20,431 bases of DNA. Origin: Anaeromyces robustus. Its lineage: Eukaryota; Neocallimastigomycota; Neocallimastigomycetes; Neocallimastigales; Neocallimastigaceae. The notes below the pieces were generated by a model. The model was given only the letters and a program-made list of their open reading frames with translations. It made no database searches and was not told where the DNA came from. Below are positions 2,246 to 18,690 of the stretch, piece by piece. The stretch is from positions 75,001-95,431 of the forward strand of contig MCFG01000267.1 in NCBI GenBank assembly GCA_002104895.1, written 5' to 3'. Numbering within the stretch: position 1 is the stretch's first letter; every line of letters begins with the position of its first letter. Both the position numbers and the translations under genes were made by a program.

Positions 2246-2700
2246 GGATTAAAAAAAATGAAAACAAAAAAAATAAAAAATAAATAATATAAAAGTTATT
2301 ATTGATTATTGTATTTTGTATGACTATGTCTAGTTTATTAATATATATACATTATTTTAAATTAATTTCAATAAAACTTTACACAATATTTCTCTATAAT
2401 ATATATATATAAAATATATAAAATAACAAATAATAAATAACAAATAACACAATAAAAATTTTATTTATATTTTTTATTATCATTACTATATTTATGTTAT
2501 ATTACAATAGTTTTTCTTTAATATAATATACAATATATAAAAATAGTTTTAATTTAGCTTTATAATTTTAAATTTTAAATTATAGTTACTAAATAATAAA
2601 AAAATTATGAAAAAATATAATAATAAAAATAAAAAATTAATATATTATAAGTATAAAATAAAATAAAATTTGAAATAAATGAATGAAATAATAAAAAATA

Positions 2701-2800
2701 ATAAAATGTATGGCATAATAATAAAAAAAAAAGAAAAAAAACTAAAAAATAATAAAATGTATGACATAATAAAAAAAAAGAAAAAAAAACTAAAAAATAA
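2701..2800. repeat. Two-copy tandem duplication of about 50 bp
   Basis: The unit begins AAAATGTATGGCATAAT and continues through A-rich sequence and ACTAAAAAATAA. It is followed directly by a second copy with ATGACATAAT in place of ATGGCATAAT and a slightly shorter A tract. It lies just downstream of the stop codon of the - strand gene, probably in or after its 3' UTR. Confidence 0.75.
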
Positions 2801-2811
2801 ATCTATAATGC

Positions 2812-11483
<8,672 letters not shown>

Positions 11484-13245: not shown

Positions 13246-13502
13246 TAAAAATAAATAAAATATTAGATAATAAAAATTAATAATAAAATATTATTGATAA
13301 ATAAATATAATTGCTAAAAATTAATTCTCAGATTAATTAAGTTAACATTTATAATAGAATTAAATAAATCACTGTGTAACCTATTACAATTTATATATAA
13401 AATAATTATAAATATTATAGAATAAAAATTTATACTCAGATAAAATAAATTAATACATAAATAAAATTAATAAAAATTTTCATGTAATGTAACGGAACGG
13501 TA

Positions 13503-13594
13503 GTTCCAATATTACAATTGACACCGATATTGAAAACGTACACGAAAAGAAAATAAAATAAAAGAAAGTTAATTATACTTTGTAATATCGGAAC
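13503..13594 (-). repeat. LTR inverted repeat, 15-bp arms (U5 hairpin)
   Basis: GTTCCAATATTACAA (13503-13517) and TTGTAATATCGGAAC (13580-13594) are inverted copies with one difference. In the sense (- strand) RNA that position is a G-U pair, so the RNA stem is complete. The same hairpin is in the other LTR, just before the primer-binding site. Confidence 0.65.
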
Positions 13595-14079
13595 ACCTTT
13601 CCTTTGTTAACCCGGAAGGTCGGCGTCGATATATATTAGTATAATTTTAATTTATTTTTTATTTAAAATTTGTTTTATTAGAATATAGTTTTATTAATTA
13701 TTAATAACTAATCTTTGTAGTATTTCGAACTACTTATGAATTAATTATTACTAATATATATAAAGTTATAAAAGAATAAAAGCACAAAGAAAAATATTTT
13801 AACTAAAAGTTTTACACCTATTTATACTTTTTGCGGAAAAATAGTTTTAAAAATAAAAGTTCATAAAAATAATAAAAAATTGCTAGAAACTAAGATATTT
13901 TGATATAAAATGAATCTCATAGAAAAATAAAGAAATATTATATAATTTTTTCTTAAAGTTTCTAATTCTATTCCATGTAATTCTATAAAGAGATACAGAA
14001 ATAAAATACAGAAACAAATACAGAATAAAATACAGAAATTTATAATAAATAAATTTAAAATAAAATTTTTATAAAATTT

Positions 14080-14152
14080 GGAACAAGGTGTGAGTCGAAC
14101 CCAGAGTGTTCGCCCAGATGGTCATAGTTACTAACCACTAGACCATGGTTAC
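14080..14152 (-). other. tRNA-like module in the 3' LTR (box A and box B)
   Basis: 73 nt on the - strand, the size of a tRNA. TGGTCTAGTGG matches box A at the position of tRNA base 8 onward, and GGTTCGACTC matches box B at tRNA-like spacing (33 nt between). The D-loop words TAGTGGTTAGTA resemble tRNA-Asp/Glu. The acceptor ends GTAACCA and TTGTTCC pair at only about 5 of 7 positions, and I find no convincing anticodon or T stem. It is a tRNA-derived or tRNA-mimicking sequence rather than a working tRNA gene. Confidence 0.6.
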
Positions 14153-14180
14153 TATTTTACTAATTGAGAGATTCGTTACA

Positions 14181-14507: not shown

Positions 14508-16445
14508 TCATTTTGATTTATTTTTAACAAAGTAACAAAGTAAATTTTCAGGTGGTTTATCTTCATAAGGGAGGTATGCATCAAGTTTAAATTCTTTAAA
14601 TTTGTTGTTTTGTTTTCTTTTGTATTTAATTGATTTTGAATTACAGATTACAAAGTATGAAGAGTTGTTAATAATTTCTTTTGAATTTGCTAAGAAAAAA
14701 TTTTGACATGTAGAATATTTATTTGATTTTGAATAAAAATTTGAATTTGGTTTATTATTATCATTCACACTCTCCTTCGAAAAGATTGGATTATTGGGTT
14801 TTGAAAAATTAATATTTTGAATAGGTTGATTTGAAGAATTTGATTTTGAGCAAGAATTAGGATTGCCAGAGGAAACAGATTGATTACCAGATTTCAGATT
14901 ATTACAAGAATTATTATTAAAAGAATCGTTACTAAGATTAACAGAGTTACAAGGAGAATTACTAGAGTTAACAGGATTACAAGAATTTGTACTAAGATTA
15001 ACAGGATTATTACAAGAATTTTTTCTAGGAAGTACACAAGAGTTAGAAACATAAGTTGGTTTATTATTATTTTTCAAAGGTTGTGAATTAATTGATTTTG
15101 TACGTTCTGAGTGGAAACAAGAAGTATTACAGAAAGATTTATTGCCAGAGTGATTATCAAGATTATTATTATTTTTAGAATGAGGTTTACAAGATTTATC
15201 AGATTTTGTATTTTGAGAATTCGTCACGAATGAATTTGGGAGTATTAAACAATTTGAAAGACAGTAATTTGAATTGAAAGTTATTTCTTTAGTTGTAAAA
15301 TTGATAGAGGGATTGTGAGTTACGAGCCAATCTATTCCAAGAATACCACAATACGAAGGTAGATCCACAATATAGAATTCTGTTTTACAAAGGTGATTTT
15401 TATATTTCAACGAGATGGGAAACGTTTTACCAAAAATTGTTTGATTTCCGGCTACTCCAGAAACGGCAGGAAAAGTAGAATCAGAATCAAAAGGAATATT
15501 GTTTTCTTTAGCAAAGTGTATATCCATAAGATTTAATTGAGAACCTGAATCGATGAGTAGTTTAGCATTGCAAGAAGAGTTTAAAGTTTGTAGATTGAAT
15601 TCGGCAACTGGAGCATTCAAAGATGGATCATCAGAAAGTCTAGGTCTTGATTTTGGTTTGGATTCTGGATTGGAAATAAAAGCATTGCTGGAAGAGGGTT
15701 TATTATCATCTTCATTCACTTTATTCTTTAAAGGGCAATTATTAACTTGATGGTTTTTTGATCCACAGTAGAAACAAAGATGTTCTTTTCTTCTTCTTTC
15801 TTTTTCATCACGAGTCATTGTTTCATTGGATTTACTTGAGGAAAATTGAAACGAACTAGAATGGCGACCAGAGGAGTGATTACTTGAATTATTCGATTTA
15901 AAATATTGATTATGAGTAAAAAGTCTTAAATCTATACGAGAAGCTATGGTTTGAAGAGAGAATAAGGATTGTGGTCCAGGAAACATTTCTAAGATTCTAG
16001 TTGCAATATTGTCGTTTAATCCTGCGAGAAAAGCATCCATTTTAGCAGCTTCATTCCAAGAAGAGTCATCTGCATATTTATTGAACTCCAGGATGTAGCT
16101 TCTTACATCTCCAAGACGTCTCTGTTTAATGGTTCTGAGCTTTTGGTTTGCTATGAAGGTTGAATCATAATTTCCAAAGGTAGCTTTAAACTTGGATATA
16201 AACGCTTCATAGTCATCTAAACATGGGTCCACATTTTCAATTAAAGTTGCGGCCCAATTCATTGCAGAACCGTAAAGTCTGGAAATGATGTATGCAACCT
16301 TAACTGGATCTTCAGAAAATTTTTCTGGTTGCAACATGAAGACAAGGTTCATTTTTGCAAGGAAGCCTTTAAAGAAACGACGGTCTCCAGCGAATCCATC
16401 TTTGTACGTAACATTTAAATTGAAAAAATTATCTTCGTTTATCAT
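14508..16445 (-). CDS. Retrotransposon Gag-protease polyprotein, 645 aa
   Basis: Structural protein of the retroelement particle fused to an aspartic protease. Residues about 25-175 resemble the Retrotrans_gag capsid domain (W64 in MNWAATLIE; FISKFKATFG; SYILEFNKYA). A basic, Ser-rich stretch leads to a CX2CX4HX4C zinc knuckle (C224, C227, H232, C237) for RNA binding. The retropepsin domain (about 293-390) has the active-site triad DSG (D299-G301) and the Ty3/gypsy-type ILGIDWL (368-374) followed by HNP. Residues about 395-600 are Asn/Ser-rich low complexity, and a short KPPENLL-containing tail precedes the TGA. There is no reverse transcriptase after the protease where Ty3-like elements have it. 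The ORF is intact, with no frameshift or internal stop. The first ATG (16443-16445) suits the capsid N-terminus. About 330 nt separate its stop from the 3' LTR. Confidence 0.93.
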   Translation of the reverse strand: MINEDNFFNLNVTYKDGFAGDRRFFKGFLAKMNLVFMLQPEKFSEDPVKVAYIISRLYGSAMNWAATLIENVDPCLDDYEAFISKFKATFGNYDSTFIANQKLRTIKQRRLGDVRSYILEFNKYADDSSWNEAAKMDAFLAGLNDNIATRILEMFPGPQSLFSLQTIASRIDLRLFTHNQYFKSNNSSNHSSGRHSSSFQFSSSKSNETMTRDEKERRRKEHLCFYCGSKNHQVNNCPLKNKVNEDDNKPSSSNAFISNPESKPKSRPRLSDDPSLNAPVAEFNLQTLNSSCNAKLLIDSGSQLNLMDIHFAKENNIPFDSDSTFPAVSGVAGNQTIFGKTFPISLKYKNHLCKTEFYIVDLPSYCGILGIDWLVTHNPSINFTTKEITFNSNYCLSNCLILPNSFVTNSQNTKSDKSCKPHSKNNNNLDNHSGNKSFCNTSCFHSERTKSINSQPLKNNNKPTYVSNSCVLPRKNSCNNPVNLSTNSCNPVNSSNSPCNSVNLSNDSFNNNSCNNLKSGNQSVSSGNPNSCSKSNSSNQPIQNINFSKPNNPIFSKESVNDNNKPNSNFYSKSNKYSTCQNFFLANSKEIINNSSYFVICNSKSIKYKRKQNNKFKEFKLDAYLPYEDKPPENLLCYFVKNKSK

Positions 16446-16488
16446 TGTTGTTTTATTTTTGGTTTTAACTAAGAATTCAAATTGTTTA

Positions 16489-16899
16489 TTAAGGTAAATT
16501 TAAATTTTAATTTCGCTTTTTATGCCTTACAACTTAAAAATAAACCGGCAAAAGCTACTAACTAGAGGTATATACTAGACCTCGAAATAAATATTAAAAC
16601 TATATAATTAAAGTCGCTTCACTTTCACGACCAACCTCCAGCCTTCGGTGACTGAAGTTCCTTATTTGCCAGAGCTTACGAAGATATTGAACTTGAACGT
16701 CCGATATTGCAGTGCTTTTTATCACACAACAATTCCTTCCCCCAAGAAAGCGTGCTTTTCACACTACCCACTTTTATCAATACCTAAGTAACTAATTGAC
16801 TATAGTTTCTTAACCTACTAGAAACTAGTTACTTACGCCAAACACTCTGTATATGAGCTCTAAACGCTCCTAGTATATTTTACAAATAATTTACCTTAA
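16489..16899. repeat. 411-bp GC-richer segment bounded by 12-bp inverted repeats
   Basis: TTAAGGTAAATT at 16489-16500 is perfectly inverted as AATTTACCTTAA at 16888-16899. The interior is clearly richer in G+C than its surroundings and carries its own hairpins. No target duplication is clear, so it may be a small insertion or a structured part of the leader. Confidence 0.45.
16785..16835. repeat. Two-stem hairpin in the gag leader
   Basis: The outer arms TAAGTAACTA (16785-16794) and TAGTTACTTA (16826-16835) are perfect inverted copies. The inner arms TAGTTTCT (16803-16810) and AGAAACTA (16820-16827) form a second stem, leaving an 8-nt bulge on one side. Confidence 0.6.
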
Positions 16900-17153
16900 A
16901 AATTAAATAAATATTTGATTACACAGAAGTTTACAAAGATGTTTTTTTTTTCTTTTAATAATTTTTTCTATTTCACACTGCTGTTCTTTCAGTTTATCAA
17001 CTTACTCGAGCTGAATGTAGGACTTACGTCTGAGCCTACCAGCGAGGGCCAATGTGAAACTCGAAATTTAATTATAAAAGAAAAAAGACAGTATAAAAAT
17101 AAGGATCCTCAGAATGATTCTCCTTATTAAAAATTTTATTAAGTTTATAAATA

Positions 17154-17157
<4 letters not shown>

Positions 17158-17195
<38 letters not shown>
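17158..17195. repeat. 38-nt poly(T) tract
   Basis: Uninterrupted T run on the + strand, poly(A) in the sense of the retroelement, in the middle of its leader. It could be slippage or the tail of a small retroposed insert. Confidence 0.85.
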
Positions 17196-17196
<1 letters not shown>

Positions 17197-17359
17197 ACTA
17201 GAAAAAATTTTTTTGAAAAATAATTTAATTTATCTATTCTATAATTTATTCATTCACTTAATTTTTTATAATAATTTATTTAATTTATTAATATTCATTC
17301 ACTTAATTTAATTTATTTAATTTTTTTAATTTAATTTTATTAATTTTCCGAAAATATTA

Positions 17360-17490
17360 CTGGCAAGGTAGTACAAAATCTTTTTCAAATGCTATGGGGT
17401 ACACTATTTTTATCTTTGGGTAGTACAAGGAAAATTTTTCAAAATGTTACACAAGGAAAATTTTTTAACTATTCTAGGGTGGTACAAAAT
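17360..17490. repeat. Degenerate tandem repeats in the leader
   Basis: Related words recur about every 25-35 nt: GGTAGTACAAAAT, GGGGTACACTA, GGGTAGTACAAGGAAAA, TTACACAAGGAAAA and GGGTGGTACAAAAT. They look like a diverged tandem array. Confidence 0.5.
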
Positions 17491-17998
17491 TTCCAATAAC
17501 TAAGGTTTCTAAGTAGTTCAAAGGCAATTCAAAGTAAAGTAGCTAAGACTAAGGAGAGAAACTAGGCGGTAGTTCTAAGAACTTGGTTAAACTAAGGACG
17601 GGTGGAATCTGGGTGCTTTATTTTTTTACTTTATCAAGAAAAATTTTTATTCGAGAAGGATACTTGATAGGATGGATACTAGAATTATTCAAGAAAAGTA
17701 GACAAAGGGTAAACAAGAAGTAGACAAGACTAAGACAAGACTAAAAACTAGGATTATACAAGGTAGATAACTGGTAATCAAAACTAGGATAGAAGTATTC
17801 AAGGGATTAGAGATTATTACTAGAAAAGGTAGTATCCAGAGACTAAGAAAAGTAATATTCTAAGATTAAGACTAAAGAAGTAATATCCAAAGGTAGTTCT
17901 AAAAGGCGGTAGAATCCAATAAAAGGTAGAAACTAAAAATTGGTAGCAGATTCCAAAATTTTCGACACTAAGGTTCCAGGCGGTGTTTCTTTTGTTGG

Positions 17999-18008
17999 GT
18001 GCTTTTAT
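17999..18008 (-). promoter_or_regulatory. Primer-binding site, probably self-primed
   Basis: Sense sequence ATAAAAGCAC immediately follows the ...GTTACA end of the 5' LTR. It does not start with TGG as a tRNA primer site would. Its perfect complement lies within both LTRs, placed downstream of the TATA box. Confidence 0.65.
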
Positions 18009-18296
18009 TGTAACGGAACGGTAGTTCCAATATTACAATTGACACCAATATTGAAAACGTACACGAAAAGAAAATAAAATAAAAGAAAGTTAATTATACT
18101 TTGTAATATCGGAACACCTTTCCTTTGTTAACCCGGAAGGTCGGCGTCGATATATATTAGTATAATTTTAATTTATTTTTTATTTTAAAATTTGTTTTAT
18201 TAGAATATAGTTTTATTAATTATTAATAACTAATCTTTGTAGTATTTCGAACTACTTATGAATTAATTATTACTAATATATATAAAGTTATAAAAG

Positions 18297-18307
18297 AATA
18301 AAAGCAC
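18297..18307 (-). promoter_or_regulatory. Candidate transcript 5' end / self-primer sequence
   Basis: On the - strand this reads GTGCTTTTATT. It is perfectly complementary to AATAAAAGCAC at 18009-17999 (sense), the first interior bases after the 5' LTR plus its last base. In Tf1-type elements the first bases of the RNA fold back and prime reverse transcription in this way. The start site itself is inferred. Confidence 0.6.
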
Positions 18308-18340
18308 AAAGAAAAAATATTTTAACTAAAAGTTTTACAC

Positions 18341-18349
18341 CTATTTATA
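18341..18349 (-). promoter_or_regulatory. TATA box of the 5' LTR
   Basis: TATAAATAG on the - strand, a match to the TATA consensus in a region where TA-rich words are common. It gains weight from its position: about 42 nt upstream of the GTGCTTTTAT that is complementary to the primer site. Confidence 0.6.
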
Positions 18350-18602
18350 CTTTTTGCGGAAAAATAGTTTTAAAAATAAAAGTTCATAAAAATAATAAAA
18401 AATTGCTAGAAACTAAGATATTTTGATATAAAATGAATCTCATAGAAAAATAAAGAAATATTATATAATTTTTTCTTAAAGTTTCTAATTCTATTCCATG
18501 TAATTCTATAAAGAGATACAGAAATAAAATACAGAAACAAATACAGAATAAAATACAGAAATTTATAATAAATAAATTTAAAATAAAATTTTTATAAAAT
18601 TT

Positions 18603-18675
18603 GGAACAAGGTGTGAGTCGAACCCAGAGTGTTCGCCCAGATGGTCATAGTTACTAACCACTAGACCATGGTTAC
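18603..18675 (-). other. tRNA-like module in the 5' LTR (box A and box B)
   Basis: Identical copy of the 73-nt module in the other LTR, with both internal Pol III promoter boxes unchanged. In sense orientation it sits near the beginning of U3, upstream of the TATA box. Confidence 0.6.
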
Positions 18676-18690
18676 TATTTTTACTAATTG

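Follow-up and report, generated by a model that had tools for sequence, protein, structure and literature searches.

The window, i.e., the whole 20,431-nucleotide stretch of Anaeromyces robustus DNA that we analyzed, contains a long terminal repeat (LTR) retrotransposon that reads leftward on the minus strand. Its features, in the order in which the element is read, are the following.

18009..18690, minus strand: 5′ LTR, from which the first ~14 bases (TGTAACGAATCTCT) are absent and to which other sequence adjoins
18608..18676, minus strand: tRNA-like stretch in U3, with an A-box-like TGGTCTAGTGG at 18668-18658 and a B-box-like GGTTCGACTC at 18624-18615, also present in the 3′ LTR
18349-18341, minus strand: TATA box TATAAATAG, 42 nt upstream of the predicted RNA start
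18307-18297, minus strand: self-primer GTGCTTTTATT, predicted RNA nt 1-11, at the start of R
18131..18150, minus strand: U5 arm of a second helix, with the internal-loop CC at 18140-18139
18009-17999, minus strand: primer-binding site (PBS) AATAAAAGCAC, the last LTR base and 10 interior bases, predicted RNA nt 299-309, followed by CC
17961..17982, minus strand: arm downstream of the PBS that can pair with the U5 arm, with the internal-loop CC at 17973-17972
16446..17998, minus strand: leader of ~1.55 kb from the PBS to gag, including a 38-nt A run
14508..16445, minus strand: gag open reading frame (ORF) with a protease-like part, 645 aa
14181..14192, minus strand: polypurine tract GAAGGAGGACCA, directly ahead of the 3′ LTR
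13488..14180, minus strand: 3′ LTR, TGTAACG...CGTTACA

A complete LTR of this family, which we call family A, is ~693-696 bp long and starts TGTAACG, and an alignment of the two LTRs of the window element shows 1 substitution and 3 gap columns in 682 columns. The 645-aa ORF between them matches Retrotrans_gag, DUF4939, and Ty3_capsid above the cut-offs, with aspartyl protease matches just under the cut-offs. No ORF for a reverse transcriptase (RT) or integrase is present between the LTRs of the window element, and none was seen in the other copies of the family that we fetched (ORFs of at least 180 codons, on the element's strand and between the LTRs). The 5′ LTR ends ...CCGTTACA at 18009, and the interior begins at 18008. 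This boundary agrees with the target duplications of eight LTRs tagged as solo: taking the LTR to end ...CA, a 5-bp duplication matches at 5/5 bases in four of them, at 4/5 in one, and at 1-2/5 in three, which fits a final A that belongs to the LTR and a primer complement that overlaps the LTR by one base.

Several further observations concern the same stretch of DNA. The shortened 5′ LTR abuts ...TTTATCA at 18690/18691, and 18 further TATCA junctions occur in the genome within 2 bases of the equivalent point, just ahead of the tRNA-like stretch; the window junction carries an extra A and so falls outside those 18. The same junction point in the LTR head also concerns five sampled loci (L009, L011, L022, L024, and L027), and the window's flank is found again ahead of an LTR of another family (F) in L024. 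A copia-like insertion was considered as an explanation for the lost LTR head and rejected, in that there are 18 TATCA junctions but 0 matches to the other end that would be expected. The leader (16446-17998) contains 15 TACC motifs, 13 of them within its first 640 nt, and CTACC-like repeats are also present in the leaders of families B and C; a PBS-like AATAAAGCACCC lies within the leader at 17622-17611 on the minus strand, 386 nt past the LTR. At the other end of the window, positions 2-1498 hold an open frame with three repeated cysteine-rich units, which we take to resemble chitin-binding modules, and then an apparent polysaccharide deacetylase, after a Thr/Lys-rich repeat.

The interior of the element opens with ATAAAAGCAC (18008-17999). 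The original prediction held that these 10 bases, or 11 once the last LTR base is added, are the perfect complement of a site in the LTR that lies about 42 nt downstream of a TATA box. Self-comparison and a script confirmed the complementarity to be exact and measured 42 nt from TATAAATAG to the start of the primer. Among the 17 11-mers whose first base lies between 5 bases ahead of and 11 bases past the last base of the LTR, the junction 11-mer alone has a complement in the LTR, and has it once. Both the window (GC content 0.193) and the 70-Mb genome are AT-rich, as fits a gut fungus. The complement was present in 10 of 20,000 simulated LTRs of equal dinucleotide make-up, a count that leaves the TATA spacing out.

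This junction is repeated throughout the genome. A 20-mer spanning the LTR end and the PBS has 51 exact and 3 one-change occurrences, counted as matches without the copies being inspected singly; at 2-3 changes it also picks up the junctions of families B, D, and H, and a reversed control gave 6 matches at up to 3 mismatches. Within the window and 20 genomic regions, 10 of the 12 family A copies that bear a PBS pair 11/11 with their own LTR, and the copy in L009 is almost a duplicate of that in the window. The remaining two (L016 and L017) have one PBS base changed and the LTR unchanged, and these unmatched single changes, together with one in a copy of family E (L020), are read here as probable later mutations. 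One alternative, which concerns this copy and not the mechanism, takes the window element to be dead and its signal to be left over, as a fossil, from an ancestor that was active. We regard this as a real, if lesser, possibility: the copy has no pol and its 5′ LTR lacks the first ~14 bases, and against this stand the LTR comparison (1 substitution, 3 gap columns), an open gag frame, and a junction found 51 times unchanged in the genome.

The original prediction had named, as a test, whether the primer site and the start of the LTR covary among relatives. We scanned 190 kb of sampled sequence for a TATA motif, an 11-mer 28-69 nt on, and the complement of this 11-mer after a C 120-600 nt later. 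The scan returned 23 rows, with 0, 1, 5, 1, and 0 rows in five shuffles; 16 rows fell at 15 real LTR/PBS junctions in six families (A, B, C, E, F, and G), and the other 7 were set aside as pairings, at the tRNA-like stretch, between LTR copies in opposite orientation. Families B and C had first been recognized by LTR similarity. Five further families (D, H, I, J, and K) were added from regions near LTR heads and RT genes, where 6 of 16 primer rows were accepted; 10 primer rows (three with a TATA match) and 2 of 4 stem rows were dropped because they had no ..AC|AAT LTR end oriented like the nearby LTR or RT. As these rows and the shuffles show, the primer scan picks up some chance matches. Of the 7 regions fetched near RT genes, 4 regions upstream of RT matches (L031-L037) gave a self-primer (L032 and L037, which are one family, L033, and L036), and in L031 a PBS at the region's edge was later confirmed.

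Across the resulting 11 LTR families, which carry 10 distinct primers (that of family D is identical to the window family's), all 121 of 121 primer:PBS cells pair, 7 of the 11 positions are changed on both sides, and 0 of 100,000 partner permutations are equally good. The 121/121 is partly built in, since it was through the 11-mer scan itself that eight of the families came to be located (E, F, and G picked by the scan; D and H by their LTR head and I, J, and K by a nearby RT, and then scanned), and the permutation counts overstate independence, since LTR heads are common to A, B, C, D, and H, and one primer to A and D. For this reason, two predictions carry more weight. In family B, the PBS was predicted from the start of R, the prediction was recorded beforehand, and it was then borne out in the sole B copy with an interior. 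In a twelfth family (L), the primer GAGTTTTTATT was deduced from the PBS in L031, a prediction that went unrecorded, and was then found once in DNA fetched later, 35 nt below TATAAATA. The primer and the start of the LTR thus covary as proposed, in 11 families and in a twelfth by prediction, and on this evidence the self-priming signal looks real and of a known type.

The composition of the site is also regular. A TATA motif lies 36-45 nt above the predicted start in all 11 families (some have extra TATA matches), and this spacing suggests that the RNA starts at the first base of the primer. All primers end in the same four bases, TATT, and the first base is G in 10 of 11 families, the primer of family I being readable as a 12-mer that begins with G. 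Ten of the 11 families have a C directly behind the stretch complementary to the 11-nt primer, compared with a C content of 0.07-0.27 over the next 200 nt. This C would have no template in the base ahead of the predicted RNA start in eight of the ten, where that base is T or C, and could have one in F and I, where it is G.

A second helix accompanies the first. In all 11 families U5 can pair with a sequence downstream of the PBS, with a loop that lies 27-37 nt beyond the last base of the LTR. Over 14 helix positions, selected after the helices were seen, 152 of 154 cells pair, 12 positions are changed on both sides, and 0 of 100,000 permutations are equally good; the first six families alone gave 96 of 102 cells over 17 positions, and in I, J, and K the AT-rich DNA offered other helices of similar length, from among which this one was chosen. 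The helix is interrupted by a 2x2 internal loop, which is CC/CC in 8 of the 11 families, CT/CC in J and K, and TC/CG in I, and which keeps its position while the other bases of the helix vary freely. A scan of the 190 kb for the CC/CC helix that ignored the primer, with the motif taken by eye from six of the families scanned, gave 20 matches, 19 of them at PBS sites, compared with 1, 0, and 2 in shuffles; the remaining match is on the plus strand of L013, away from any PBS. The 19 sites include four at which the 11-mer is spoiled, either by a one-base change (L016, L017, and L020) or by an LTR truncating R (L017, minus strand).

The primer:PBS pairing and the second helix interleave, so that the fold would be a pseudoknot. 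Free folding was tried as independent proof and rejected: the primer:PBS pairing had a mean probability of 0.66 in the native sequence, 0.97 in body-shuffled controls, and 0.0 with a scrambled primer, and since the shuffled bodies pair better than the native one, folding adds nothing to the complementarity. In the available text of PMC10085805, the Tf1 “pretzel” comprises three duplexes, the central one being primer:PBS, with PBS-adjacent sequences paired with the LTR. Two of these three parts are seen in our families, i.e., primer:PBS and a duplex that joins the LTR to sequence beyond the PBS, the latter in 11 families with positions selected post hoc.

These data bear on a second alternative, in which the complementarity is the relic of an ancestral short inverted duplication at the LTR edge with no role in priming. 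A match does not by itself show function, and it is on this ground that such a relic might be proposed; ten primer sequences in 11 families, a similar TATA spacing, a constant place at the end of the LTR, and a second helix that likewise changes on both sides all argue against it, and we consider it highly improbable.

In the remaining alternative, which we judge the least credible, the site downstream of the LTR serves to bind a host tRNA as primer, and its match to the LTR is coincidental. Priming by tRNA is the commoner mode, and another gypsy family in this genome, with a different gag (L034), has TGGCGCCCAACGTGGGG upstream of its ORF, which by eye resembles a tRNA-type PBS. The TGG typical of the PBS in tRNA-primed Ty3/gypsy elements does not occur in the 17 bases from the last base of the LTR in any of the 11 families; compared with 16 sampled tRNA genes (drawn from 63 scored of 2,506 candidates), the sites of six families have a longest exact complement of 5-6 nt, and the family A site has at best 5/18 matches to a tRNA 3′ end. 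This tRNA sample is small, with few isotypes, and the tRNA-type control in L034 likewise finds no partner in it, so that the 16-gene comparison does not decide. Against tRNA priming stands also that changes in the PBS from family to family go with those in the LTR, which served to predict the PBS.

Two relatives, families D (L038) and H (L039), have a self-type PBS and share the LTR head and gag type of the window family, and their open frames match RT, RNase H, integrase, SH3_Tf2-1, and Chromo (Pfam); we call them autonomous on the basis of these domains. In D and H the chromodomain is found at the C-terminal end of the integrase; the window element itself has no integrase. The best solved-structure match of the pol of D is Ty3 (7q5b, E 2.4e-163), and the window gag has its Ty3_capsid match. 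Ty3 itself is tRNA-primed and is not known to have a chromodomain. As a separate observation, the sampled locus L012 contains at 2289-3440 an ORF with RNA_helicase and Parvo_NS1 matches, possibly a viral Rep-like remnant, that runs into a truncated LTR of the window family.

According to the available parts of three papers (PMC10085805, PMC4600332, PMC7175516), Tf1/sushi chromoviruses (Tf1, Tf2, Tj1, Tosmo, and Tcry1) are primed by an 11-nt RNA 5′ end, as predicted here, have a PBS that adjoins an LTR ending CA and PBS-adjacent sequence paired with the LTR, as found here, and encode a chromodomain integrase, as do relatives D and H. A ~11-nt RNA 5′ segment complementary to a PBS that abuts the 5′ LTR is present in the window element, taking the RNA start as predicted. 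The window family fits the Tf1/sushi group, a putative affinity that comes from SH3_Tf2-1 and Chromo in the pol of D and H, the window element having no pol. The original assignment to a Tf1/sushi-type self-priming arrangement is accordingly upheld by the co-variation and by the predictions in B and L, with the affinity drawn from the relatives. Unlike Tf1/sushi elements, the window copy has no pol and its U3 has tRNA-like boxes. We also count as a possible difference the C-rich 2x2 loop in the U5/downstream stem, the fold of Tf1 being taken from the general descriptions in these sources.

The tRNA-like boxes set these LTRs apart in a further respect. For the U3 stretch, neither Rfam (E up to 5) nor ARAGORN made a tRNA call, and Rfam found no tRNA in the LTRs of five other loci; the single tRNA there, in L019, lies outside the LTRs. 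A B-box motif occurs 197-325 nt above the predicted RNA start, upstream of the TATA box, in 9 of 11 families (all except E and I; chance rate uncomputed). An LTR-head pattern with both the A-box and the B-box has 324 matches in the genome, compared with 0 for the reversed pattern, and among the matches listed it belongs to families A, B, C, D, F, and H. LTRs containing a tRNA-like sequence are reported from fungi in the Helenus TRIMs, as far as described in the available text of PMC10886601, and in this our families are alike. Helenus elements are, in the same text, short, protein-less, and tRNA-primed, whereas those described here are long gypsy elements with a self-type PBS, D and H having full pol, and the 645-aa ORF and self-type PBS of the window element likewise place it outside this class.

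Taken together, we consider it very probable that the window element is a pol-less copy of a family of Ty3/gypsy chromovirus type whose reverse transcription is self-primed as in Tf1. From the sequences we infer that transcription would start at the G at 18307, and that the first 11 nt of the RNA would fold back onto the PBS straddling the LTR/interior junction. U5 would pair with sequence ~30 nt past the PBS, the two helices interleaving as a pseudoknot, and the second helix would hold the complex. RNase H would then nick the RNA after about nt 11, as in Tf1 (available text of PMC7175516), and the freed 11-mer would prime minus-strand DNA. As the window copy has no pol, these enzymes would have to come in trans from an autonomous relative; family D, with its full pol, has a primer identical to that of the window copy. 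The PBS of a new copy would itself be made from the primer, so that the mechanism, and not selection alone, would lead one to expect an exact match.

Self-priming, the 11-nt length, the position of the PBS, and the extra duplex are already known for Tf1/sushi elements, and self-priming was first shown in one yeast element, Tf1 (available text of PMC4600332). Among the open-licence papers listed by our searches we saw no report of self-priming in anaerobic fungi. What may be less expected is the internal loop rich in C, together with the C that follows the PBS and the tRNA-like boxes in U3. Speculatively, and with considerable doubt, two of these could be new parts of self-priming, the 2x2 loop being recognized by the RT/RNase H that cuts the primer, and the C after the PBS being an imprint left by RT on copying the capped 5′ end of the primer.

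With these findings the Tf1-type mechanism gains a fungal genome that holds about a dozen families, with ten different self-primers among them. A set of this kind is a natural alignment from which to learn what matters in the fold. A family that bears the signal and has no pol would, if mobile, imply that its primer is cut and used by the enzymes of another element.
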